DNA of 64,000 nt, from assembly GCA_946402275.1 (NCBI GenBank), contig CAMIVY010000005.1:62001-126000 (forward strand), given 5' to 3'. Below the pieces are notes generated by a model that saw only the letters and a list, made by a program, of their open reading frames with translations, ran no database searches and was not told where the DNA came from. Numbering within the stretch: the first letter of the stretch is position 1; each line of letters opens with the position of its first letter. Source of the stretch: an uncultured Prevotella sp. GTDB lineage: Bacteria; Bacteroidota; Bacteroidia; Bacteroidales; Bacteroidaceae. Of this stretch, positions 15,191 to 18,436 are shown piece after piece. The translations under genes and the position numbers were made by a program.

Positions 15191-16428
15191 ATGCGAAGAA
15201 TATTGAATTTGTTTTTGCTGCTCTGCCTACCATTGATGACGATGGGTGAGGAGATCAGCCAGCAACAGGCAAGGGAAAAGGCATGTGCCTTTATGCAACA
15301 CCTGCAAGGCCGGAGAGCTCAGGCACTTGGCAGTGTCAGCGAGAACGTACAACCCGTGGAAATGGGATTACATTCACTCTACGCTTTCAACTGCAAGGGT
15401 GGGGGCTATGTCATCGTCAGCGGTGACGACGCCACCACGCCCATTTTGGGCTATTCACCAGATGGGGTGCTGAATGTGGACGAGATGCCGGCGAACCTCC
15501 GTACATGGCTGGAAGGCTATGCCGACCAGATTCGCAGGCTACAGCGTGGAGAGGCAAAGGCGGCTACACGCAGGGCTCCTGTTGCCCGTGCCAAGATAGA
15601 GCCGCTCGTCAAAGCACAATGGAACCAGCGCGCTCCTTTCAATCTGGAATGTCCGAAAGATGTGGAAGCCGGAGGGGTGCTGTCGGCTTCAGGCTGTGTG
15701 GCAACGGCTATGTCGCAAGTGATGTACTTCCATAAGTGGCCACAGGGAGCTACAACACCCTATACGACTATTGGCAAGAAGGATGTACCTTCTACTACGT
15801 TTGACTGGGATAATATGTTGCCCGTTTATGAAGAAGGGAAATACACGGAAGCGCAAGGCAATGCCGTTGCCCATCTGATGCGATGGGCAGGCTGGAGCGT
15901 TGATATGCAATATGCAGCAGCAATGTCGGGTGCTGCGACGGGCCGCATTGAGAGAGCCATGCGCCTGTGTTTCGGCTACGGATACAAGTTAAGGCGGACG
16001 ACGGCCGCCAGGACTTCTGCCTGTTGCGCGTTGACCCCTCGCTGGCCGGCAAAACCGTGCGGTTTACTGATGGGAACATCAACACATCCTTGTTTCAAAT
16101 GGCCTTGTCCTCCAGCTTGTACGTCTATAACAACTATTGCCGCCATACGAAGCAGAATGTCTATGTCGTAGAAGGCAACCGCTTTGTGCTGAAGCAGAGC
16201 ATTGAACTCAAGCCATTCACGCAATACCTGCAACTGGCCGATGGCGTAGAGAATCCTCCCGCCTTCCTCACCATCGTCGATGTCAACAATCCTTCGGGAA
16301 TTGACGAGGTCAGGAGCCTGAAGGCTAACGACCAGGAAATCTACTACGACCTGCAGGGTCGTCGCCTGAACGGCAAACCCCAGCGAGGGCTATATATAAA
16401 GAATGGTAAGAAAATTATAGTTCAATGA
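15191..16428 (+). pseudogene. Broken C10 (streptopain-like) cysteine peptidase
   Basis: The first frame (from 15191) encodes a signal peptide, a propeptide-like region (GGGYVIVSGDDATTPILGYS) and the catalytic Cys block SASGCVATAMSQVMYFHKWP (Cys 169). Near 15985-15992 the homologous reading moves to another frame (VKADDGRQDFCLLRVD onward), which ends at 16428 with a tail (YYDLQGRRLNGKPQRGLYI, then NGKKIIV) typical of secreted Prevotella proteins. The catalytic His block expected in between is absent, so an internal deletion together with the frameshift has destroyed the peptidase. Read in its first frame it would end at 16171 with unrelated residues. It is almost certainly non-functional as a protease. 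Confidence 0.8.
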
Positions 16429-16566: not shown

Positions 16567-16680
16567 AGTCCGTCCCTACGGACTGCCAGTCCGCTCGGGT
16601 CGGACTGCGATTCCGAAGCCTTCGGACTGGTGGCTACTATCATAACCCAAAGTTGTTCCATAATAACCTTGGGTTATTTT
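16567..16680. repeat. Cluster of palindromes in the spacer before the VirE element
   Basis: Three hairpins in a row: agtccgtccctacggact (16567-16584), agtccg...cggact (16588-16606) and tccgaagccttcgga (16612-16626). These are followed by ataaccc...gggttat (about 16640-16677). The first recurs at 27183-27198. No gene is seen from 16429 to 17080. Confidence 0.7.
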
Positions 16681-16738
16681 CCATTAAGCGTTCCTTATTA
16701 ATTGTTAAACGTGCCTTATTCGCATCAGAACCAAGGAT

Positions 16739-16851
16739 TTTCAAAATGTCCCTCCCTTCCTCCCGTTTTTGCTCGGAAGCCCTTTATACAAAGAGGTTAA
16801 GTCACGGGAGGGATACTCGGTTCTCACTCCCGTCTCCCTCCCTTTTTTGGT
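16739..16851. repeat. Left inverted repeat of the VirE element
   Basis: About 113 bases, near-identical in inverted form to 18296-18410 over the outer 65 bases (shared blocks tccctcccttcctcccg, tttttgctcggaagcccttt, tacaaag) and again at the inner end (cccgtctccctccc). The middle differs more. It lies upstream of the VirE promoter. No obvious target-site duplication is visible outside the pair. Confidence 0.85.
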
Positions 16852-16930
16852 GGTGTCACTCACCTTATTTATTATATAGCAGAATTTGCACGATAATACC
16901 GTGAATAAACGTGCTTTTTTAGGCAAATTA

Positions 16931-16962
16931 TTTGCAAACCGCCAATTTTTTTTGTATCTTTG
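16931..16962 (+). promoter_or_regulatory. Promoter of the VirE-type gene
   Basis: TTTG (16931-16934), 20 bases, TATCTTTG (16955-16962). It lies inside the inverted-repeat pair. The leader before ATG 17081 is about 110 bases. Confidence 0.75.
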
Positions 16963-17080
16963 CAATGCATTTCGAAAGAATGCAAATTGGGATAATGGCA
17001 ATCATGGAAAACACAAGAAAAACACCATGAAAAACCAGCCAATAACGAATTTATAAACCATTAAAAAAAGAAAAGAAACT

Positions 17081-18289
17081 ATGGAAGAAAAATCCTTAGT
17101 GGTGGTTGAACAGCCCCAAAATGTTCAAAAAGAGAGTGTGCTTATCATTGAGCAGTTCCTTAACGACAACTATCGTCTGCGACGCAACATGCTGAGCGGA
17201 AAGGTCGAATTCAAGATGAGGGCCGAGGTAACAGCCGACTATCGTCCGCTGACACAGGAGGCCCTGAATAGCATCATTATCCGAGCCCTTCGCGAAGGAC
17301 TGGACGAGGAGTGCAACCCCAAGGCTGACATCACCATGTATGTCAACTCTGAGGAGGTGCGCATGTACAACCCCGTTTTGGCTTTCCTGAACGACCTGCC
17401 CCAATGGGACGGACAGAACCACGTAGCCAAGCTCTTCTCGCGTCTGCCAGGCCTCAGCACGGAGCAACTCGCCTTCCTAGCCGTCTGGCTACGATCTACG
17501 GTGGCTCATTGGTTACAGATGGACACCATGCACGGCAATGAGGTGGTTCCTGTGCTGATTGGTGCTCAAGGTTGTGGCAAGACCACCTTCTTGCGCCGAC
17601 TGCTACCCTCTCAGCTTCGTGAGTACTACCTGGATCACCTGAATCTGTCGAACAAGTTCGACAAGGAGATGGCGCTGACGAACAACCTGCTGGTAAACCT
17701 CGACGAACTGGAAGCCATCCGCCCCAGTCAGCACGCAGCCCTGAAGCAGACCTTATCGAAGAATAAGGTGAACGGACGCCCCATCTTTGGCAAGGCTCAG
17801 GACGACCGTCCCCGCTATGCGTCGTTTGTCTCGACTACCAACAATCCGCATCCGCTAACAGATGCAACAGGCTCGCGTCGCTACATCTGCATTTCCATTC
17901 CCAAAGGTCAGCTGATAGACAATACTGGCGACATTGACTACGAGCAGTTGTATGCCCAGGTGTTGTATGAAATCCAAGAGTTGAATGCCCCTTATTGGTT
18001 CAACAACGAGGAGGTAATCCGTATTCAGCAGCTGAACCTCGCCTACATGCAACAGAAAGACATTGCAGAGATGGTGAAAGTCTGCTTTCGCAAGCCCAAG
18101 GAGGGTGAGAAGGTGAAGTCGATGAGCACTACGGAGATGCTGGAGATTATCCGCAATGCATACCCCAACGTGTCTGTTACGACAAAGGCGAAAGTAGAGC
18201 TGGGACGAGCACTTGTCAGTCTCGACTACGAGCGCAAAGAACATAGCCATGTGGCTTTCTACAAAGCCGTTCCGATACAGGCAGCGTGA
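17081..18289 (+). CDS. VirE-family P-loop ATPase (phage/mobile primase-helicase type)
   Basis: 402 residues. The core matches the 'virulence-associated E' family: Walker A GAQGCGKTTF (about 161-170), an acidic Walker B LVNLDELEAI (about 203-212), a sensor-like SFVSTTNNPHPL and the arginine pair GSRRY (about 264-268). The N-terminal 100 residues (NYRLRRNMLSGKVEFK) resemble the start of the helicase part, but the separate VirE_N domain common in Bacteroides relatives is missing. Such proteins are usually encoded in phages and integrated elements. Here the gene and its promoter are enclosed by two long inverted repeats. Biochemical role is not established; DNA unwinding in replication of an element is an inference. 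Confidence 0.85.
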   Translation: MEEKSLVVVEQPQNVQKESVLIIEQFLNDNYRLRRNMLSGKVEFKMRAEVTADYRPLTQEALNSIIIRALREGLDEECNPKADITMYVNSEEVRMYNPVLAFLNDLPQWDGQNHVAKLFSRLPGLSTEQLAFLAVWLRSTVAHWLQMDTMHGNEVVPVLIGAQGCGKTTFLRRLLPSQLREYYLDHLNLSNKFDKEMALTNNLLVNLDELEAIRPSQHAALKQTLSKNKVNGRPIFGKAQDDRPRYASFVSTTNNPHPLTDATGSRRYICISIPKGQLIDNTGDIDYEQLYAQVLYEIQELNAPYWFNNEEVIRIQQLNLAYMQQKDIAEMVKVCFRKPKEGEKVKSMSTTEMLEIIRNAYPNVSVTTKAKVELGRALVSLDYERKEHSHVAFYKAVPIQAA

Positions 18290-18295
18290 GGGTAG

Positions 18296-18410
18296 GGGAG
18301 TAAAAACGGGAGGGAGACGGGAGGGATATTTGTTTTCCCTCCCGCGCCTCAACCCCTTTGTACAAAGGGCTTCCGAGCAAAAACGGGAGGAAGGGAGGGA
18401 GATTTTGAAA
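18296..18410. repeat. Right inverted repeat of the VirE element
   Basis: Inverted copy of 16739-16851. It starts 7 bases after the VirE stop codon. It contains the perfect palindrome ccctttgtacaaaggg (18354-18369), which is imperfect in the left copy. Confidence 0.85.
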
Positions 18411-18436
18411 TTCTTTAAAAAATTGAAACTAAAAAA

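Follow-up and report, generated by a model that had tools for sequence, protein, structure and literature searches.

A helicase gene between inverted iteron arms

In a 64,000-nucleotide (nt) stretch of DNA from an uncultured Prevotella species (contig CAMIVY010000005.1; hereafter the window, whose positions serve as coordinates), a gene for a VirE-type helicase lies between two inverted arms made of short repeats (iterons), with a DUF6078 gene just beyond the right arm (Table 1). We refer to this arrangement as a unit, and to loci and genomes by L and G numbers, the genome of the window being G000. An earlier note on this DNA had described a VirE-type ATPase gene lacking a VirE_N domain, bounded by inverted repeats, with no transposase inside and a DUF6078-like gene just outside, and all of these features were borne out. 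The arms pair over 81 nt at 90% complementarity (16733-16813 with 18336-18416) and over an inner segment of 25 nt at 92% (16824-16848 with 18302-18326), and a single gapped alignment takes in both (116 nt, 85%, E 3.7e-30; left 16733-16848, right from 18302).

The VirE protein matches the VapE-like Pfam family PF05272 (E 1.6e-34; 119.7 bits against a Pfam cut-off of 25), DUF5906 and, C-terminally, DUF3874, together with a PHROG family of DNA helicases (2.4e-43). Neither VirE_N nor a Y1 family was among its Pfam matches at E<=1, and it matched no primase family. Both genes of the unit match VapE-like/DUF3874/helicase and DUF6078 families and no transposase family, and searches of their proteins with PADLOC and NCBIfam returned weak P-loop or irrelevant matches only. 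The predicted structure of the DUF6078 protein had a mean predicted local distance difference test score (pLDDT) of 56.6 and was not used for a fold search.

The closest solved structure to the VirE protein is that of PriRep1 with double-stranded DNA (7pds; phmmer sequence E 4.4e-9, Foldseek E 3.1e-7), a protein of the Staphylococcus aureus pathogenicity islands (SaPIs). The C-terminal part of the VirE model has the order of helices and strands of a winged helix, with pLDDT near 87, and the variable residues of the C terminus sit, by eye, around the predicted wing. According to PMC7581432, SaPI Rep uses its C-terminal domain to recognise iterons that directly follow its own helicase gene, and the Cch2 helicase of the staphylococcal cassette chromosome mec (SCCmec) binds direct repeats just downstream of its gene. 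Judged by these matches and the model, the VirE protein is likely a replication-initiator helicase of the Rep/PriRep type, with a C-terminal winged helix predicted to bind the iterons of the arms.

Read by eye from its inner end outwards, an arm has first two or three direct iterons that recur about every 11-12 bp; a single inverted iteron comes next, then a conserved core, and finally one or two further iterons on the outside. The right arm holds a perfect 16-bp palindrome, ccctttgtacaaaggg, of which the left arm has no perfect copy. The suggestion that this palindrome may be a binding site was not supported as such; over the family it forms the tip of an imperfect core, roughly CTCAAACCCTTTGTACATCGGCATTTGAG by eye, and is not itself the conserved site. 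Rfam gave no match in the window or in loci L003-L007.

Table 1 Features of the unit in the window
Feature	Position	Strand	Evidence and remarks
Left-end palindrome module	16567..16720	+	AGTCCG hairpin array 16567-16628; AACCCAAGGTT hairpin 16642-16677; AAGCGTTCCTTATT / ACGTGCCTTATT repeats 16686-16720
Left arm	16733..16848	-	Outer iterons, core 16780-16796, inverted iteron, inner iterons of GGGAGGG type
Predicted -7 promoter box of the VirE gene	16955-16962	+	TATCTTTG; Bacteroidetes-type
VapE/VirE-like AAA+ helicase, 402 amino acids (aa)	17081..18289	+	Pfam, PHROG, 7pds, model; predicted winged helix at C-terminal residues 326-398
Right arm	18302..18416	+	13 nt past VirE stop; direct iterons 18306-18315 and 18317-18326; inverted iteron 18336-18344
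Right arm core and outer part	within 18302..18416	+	Core with palindrome 18354-18369; outer iterons to about 18400
DUF6078 gene, 150 aa	18437..18889	+	Conserved cysteines; Pfam PF19555, 3.6e-44; homology between window and nearest relatives ends at or near its stop

Arms accompany the helicase gene across the family

A close VirE gene (E<=1e-100) is present in 88 of 299 genomes of the genus. We compared 61 loci, namely the window and 60 fetched among the places listed in this search, two of the 60 being from G000. BLAST (E<=1e-3) found inverted arms within 700 bp of the VirE gene in 55 of them; in a control that set the upstream region of one locus against the downstream region of another, 18 of 120 random pairs matched at this threshold. 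Five of the other six carry DUF6078 upstream of VirE, and there the arms enclose both genes, which brings the total to 60 of 61. The last, L119, gave no BLAST pair; its right arm is present, and its left arm is visible by eye. Relative to the end of the stop codon, the right arm starts somewhere from 39 nt upstream to 26 nt downstream in 54 of the loci with BLAST-detected arms; in the 55th, L095, DUF6078 intervenes. DUF6078 lies near VirE in 31 of the 61 loci, 25 times past the right arm, once between VirE and the right arm and five times upstream.

Another 20 loci had arms in 18 cases, including genes of 49-53% identity; the two armless ones were L261, for which only 93 bp of upstream sequence was available, and L274, where none was found. 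Among remote VirE relatives (24-38% identity), flanking inverted repeats occurred in only 2 of 21. A protein search scored at least 6672 relatives among 7998 candidates. In a collection of named genomes, the best 80 of 393 loci were from Prevotella, Prevotellaceae, Bacteroidaceae or Bacteroidales, many by title from the gut of cattle, sheep, goat, deer or buffalo. At the nucleotide level the arm of the window was found in only two of 39 other relatives searched (G007 and G022), and arms therefore change fast. A broken VirE copy lies between arms of the L097 type at L171 (205-1705) in G281.

Arm sequence follows the helicase C terminus

Iteron type varies among units, from GGGAGGG in the window to GTGAGGG, ACTCACC, CTAACAC, TTATATGTTT, CGGGAAATCTA, GGTTAGATGT and still others in other units. 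Each of the three close units of G000 has a type of its own; several types occur among the six units of G281, some partly alike. We related this variation to the two parts of the helicase, the N terminus (residues 1-320) and the C terminus (residues 325-400), by partial correlation with permutation tests. Over 61 units the right arm followed the C terminus given the N terminus with a partial r of 0.48 (0 of 2000 permutations), against 0.10 for the N terminus given the C terminus (25 of 2000). With L119 dropped, the right-arm value was 0.45 (0 of 1000), and the reverse value was 0.10-0.12 over both tests. The right-arm link could come from linkage, because on the DNA the stretch coding for the C terminus adjoins the right arm. 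The left arm is on the upstream side of the gene and still gave 0.39 with the C terminus versus 0.15 with the N terminus (60 units, each 0 of 1000).

The same association can be read from pairs of units within one genome. In L097/L100, L111/L112 and L105/L106 the genes are mostly 83-100% alike per 60-nt block, and the C terminus and both arms change together. The left arm had its own right arm as best partner in 41 of 60 units, a figure that is partly built in since arms were picked by mutual similarity. In these comparisons of sequences, the iteron type of the arms tracks the winged-helix C terminus of the helicase of the same unit far more than its N terminus.

Gene-less arm doublets are dispersed in the genomes

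Arms also occur in pairs without a gene. G000 contains five further pairs of this kind, 39-79 nt apart, and such doublets were found twice in G213 and three times in G281. In four of the five doublets of G213 and G281, at least one arm best matches the units of its own genome. We then searched six near-complete genomes with 17 arms and obtained 163 matches, 150 of which were listed and used for pairing. Among these there were 46 gene-less pairs (30 in G071, five each in G061, G182 and G281, one in G284 and none in G233), 13 pairs that flank known genes and 32 arms whose partner was not among the listed matches. All 46 gene-less pairs have the -/+ orientation found around the gene, and none has the +/- order. 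Every listed match was to an arm type of the same genome, though arms of all six genomes were queried. A second query in G071 returned essentially the same set of doublets (40 of 50 candidates scored).

The doublets are intergenic, with a long frame (>=80 aa) spanning none of 40, and two of them, folded as single-stranded DNA, formed strong hairpins (z -6.9 and -7.6 against shuffles). Palindromic AGTCCG arrays lie between the arms in units L097 and L100 of G281, and likewise in the three doublets read there; in G000 and G213 they lie outside the arms, in gene units and doublets alike. As the placement of the array matches between the units and doublets of a genome, the doublets derive from, or share descent with, the resident units. 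Repeats found mainly alone had been regarded in the earlier note as an argument against a mobile unit, and gene-less doublets do outnumber the gene units of their type (5:1 in G000, 30:2 in G071); however, their common orientation extends the idea of mobility. Their existence also fits the suggestion, made there, of a unit moved by a factor acting in trans.

Extent of the units

Near-identical units at different loci, which the earlier note had proposed to look for, were found within one genome. Starting just inside the left arm, L083 and L084 are 97% alike up to the DUF6078 stop; across the left arm and the left-end module the figure is 91%, and beyond that homology ceases. The units of L110 and L113, from closely related genomes, are 97% alike but differ in their left flanks. 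On the left they end in an array of ATTCCCACGTTGGGAATA palindromes, and on a G194 contig that likely continues L113, homology to L110 ends at the DUF6078 stop. After DUF6078, the right flank of L110 in G110 holds the start of what we take, by eye, to be a Cas9-like gene. The left-end module of the window is common to its unit and the five gene-less copies of G000, and is shared with L079 from about 16563.

When the window was compared with its 13 nearest relatives (80-98% protein identity; flanks taken from 600 bp on the upstream side and 200 bp on the downstream side out to about 3 kb), DUF6078 was common where present, and there was no other common flank stretch of more than 200 nt. Homology ended at or near the DUF6078 stop, or about 40 nt further with L084. 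The idea that the arms are the ends of the element thus fails for the DUF6078-bearing pairs (L083/L084; L110 against the G194 contigs), in which homology runs from the left palindrome array to the DUF6078 stop, beyond the right arm. For the right arm it stands in L105/L106, which lack DUF6078 and resemble each other over no more than the stretch between the gene start and the right arm. From these alignments, DUF6078-bearing units appear to reach beyond their arms, with the left palindrome array at one end and the close of DUF6078 at the other. L258 and L259 are 95% alike with different flanks; the left break lies inside a gene fragment, the 5' part of what we presume to be a RhuM-like gene, so rearrangement is possible.

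The right-flank region of L092, L103, L123, L077 and L090 is the same and carries VirE units in several species, with the unit of L090 inverted. This region is a possible insertion hot spot.

A proposed model of helicase-driven spread and its alternatives

Taken together, the helicase and its origin-like arms may form a minimal mobile system, likely also serving gene-less copies, that resembles in layout the systems of repetitive extragenic palindrome doublets (REPINs) and their REP-associated tyrosine transposases (RAYTs), with a helicase in place of the transposase. We give this proposal about an even chance. By analogy with SaPI Rep, which acts at an origin just downstream of its gene, the VirE helicase would load on its own iterons, open the DNA and start local copying of what lies between the arms. 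This segment would be the gene unit, or a gene-less doublet served in trans, and the copy would then be inserted elsewhere by host or other enzymes. DNA binding, unwinding, replication and action in trans by VirE are steps that we infer. A more general version holds that a solo helicase of the Rep type can copy any DNA between inverted arrays of its own iterons with no transposase and thereby mobilise both its own gene and a set of gene-less doublets, that C terminus and iterons co-evolve, and that several such systems coexist without cross-talk; we advance it tentatively, as somewhat short of an even bet.

Several observations weigh against this proposal. The AAA+ core of the VirE model is poorly predicted. 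The N terminus keeps a weak link to the arms (the 25 of 2000 permutations over 61 units; 0 and 1 of 1000 over 60), the permutation tests correct only in part for common descent in these sequence comparisons, and in pairs with N-terminal identity <80% the link to the C terminus drops to 0.16 for the left arm and 0.21 for the right, an effect weaker and of the same kind (0.02 and -0.02 with the N terminus). One doublet of G281, L173, best matches arms of units in other genomes, and one arm of L163 best matches L088. No target-site duplication was seen by eye, in an inspection that was not systematic, at the ends compared. The joined flanks of L083 and of L084 were searched against 149 genomes with two candidates scored per genome; 128 matched, mostly by the right-flank gene of L083, and no listed match crosses the junction. 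Eighteen loci from this search were checked for VirE and none had it. No clean empty site was found. In G110 the left-flank site of L113 is present without the unit, but a search of G194 did not turn up the right flank of L113. L138 in G007, considered as an empty site of L084, was rejected, as by eye it seems to hold the 5' end or remnant of another unit. Finally, some units keep their locus in at least two species (L126/L131, L118/L120, L092/L103/L123).

The alternative that survives best, which we nonetheless consider rather unlikely, is that of a domesticated Rep: helicase and arms would serve the host chromosome in replication control, layout or fork rescue, and the doublets would be maintained sites and not parasites. 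The intergenic position of all 40 doublets and the open helicase frames in nearly all places listed agree with this. So does spacing in G071, where the smallest gap between doublets or gene units is 19.8 kb (4 of 20,000 simulations), and on its contig C12 (L304-L310), where they follow one another at about 48 kb (37-57 kb; coefficient of variation (CV) 0.13, 0 of 20,000), two helicase units included. Yet C12 was picked afterwards, its pattern is broken by a single arm at C12:373459 (CV 0.34, 30 of 20,000), and other contigs lack the pattern. Once single arms on these contigs count, one of which is just 4.5 kb away from a gene unit, the minimum spacing is unremarkable (2817 of 20,000); over all G071 contigs the regularity is not significant (CV 0.70, 1830 of 20,000), and the gaps in G061 are irregular. 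A host function also fits poorly with the lack of a close gene copy in most of the 299 sampled genomes.

Could the helicase instead be a passenger, and the repeats ordinary non-autonomous elements that depend for movement on an unrelated transposase such as a Y1/RAYT-type or insertion sequence (IS) enzyme? We think this improbable. The layout is like that of REPIN-RAYT systems as presented in PMC3116915, and Y1 transposases, the sole transposase family searched, are present in five of the six genomes tested. None of the 12 Y1 places found, however, has an arm within about 1.5 kb, and G281 has gene-less doublets with no Y1 match. A passenger would, moreover, not be expected to have a C terminus that the arm sequence tracks.

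It is quite improbable that the unit is the replication module of a decayed larger island or satellite, with the arms as its true origin and the doublets as old island remains. The relation of VirE to PriRep1, and the occurrence of VirE relatives in phage (470) and plasmid (88) records, all at <60% identity, are what such an origin would predict, but a nucleotide comparison, made with no integrase or phage family search, revealed no common neighbours in the flanks of unrelated units, the doublets keep one orientation, and 30 copies in one genome would be hard to obtain by decay. That the arms are just operators or terminators of the VirE gene, as might be suggested by a right arm at its stop codon and a left arm ahead of its promoter, is very improbable, for it leaves unexplained the dispersed one-orientation doublets and the placement of arms outside a DUF6078-VirE pair.

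Relation to known systems

The units resemble SaPI Rep/PriRep1 in having an AAA+ helicase related in sequence and fold, iterons directly downstream, and a C-terminal winged helix (predicted here), to which specificity would be tied. They differ in that the iteron array is doubled and inverted on both sides of the gene and has gene-less chromosomal copies. SCCmec Cch2 is likewise a helicase gene with direct repeats just downstream (PMC7581432), but it belongs to a large cassette with recombinases and has repeats on one side only. With REPIN-RAYT systems the units share intergenic inverted hairpin doublets, dispersed in a genome together with a gene that is flanked by, and evolves with, the same repeats; here, however, the gene encodes a Rep-type AAA+ helicase and not a Y1 tyrosine transposase, the arms are iteron arrays of about 110 bp, and 0-30 doublets were found per genome, with several types per genome. 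As in miniature inverted-repeat transposable elements (MITEs) and their parent IS, gene-less copies have terminal inverted repeats that match a gene-bearing parent; unlike those, the parent has no recognisable transposase, no target duplication was seen, and the DUF6078-bearing homology ends outside the repeats.

We found no account of the helicase-arm system among the papers listed in literature searches on DUF6078, DUF3874, Prevotella VirE, SaPI initiators, self-loading helicases of staphylococci, Prevotella MITEs and REPIN-RAYT. Rep helicases, iterons and dispersed doublets are each known singly; their union in a transposase-free dispersed system is, as far as our searches show, new. If the proposed helicase-driven spread is true, dispersed palindromic repeats in bacteria need not rely on a transposase, a replication initiator could propagate together with its origin as a tiny selfish element, and a family of intergenic repeats in Prevotella would gain a protein. 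The many natural pairs of helicase and repeat are also a data set for DNA specificity of winged helices.

AGTCCG arrays and neighbouring genes

In G000, AGTCCG arrays occur at 12 places, six with arms and six without, and we therefore rejected them as a part of the unit. Judged by this distribution, they are a separate family of intergenic repeats that forms the left end of some units. AGTCCG..CGGACT palindrome arrays were seen in G000, G213, G281 and G007, and the pattern had no match in G071 and G061.

The right neighbour of the window unit is presumably a SusD-like gene. The left neighbour encodes a C10 peptidase (streptopain-like) and seems split into overlapping frames (15191-16171 and 15967-16428), likely by a frameshift.
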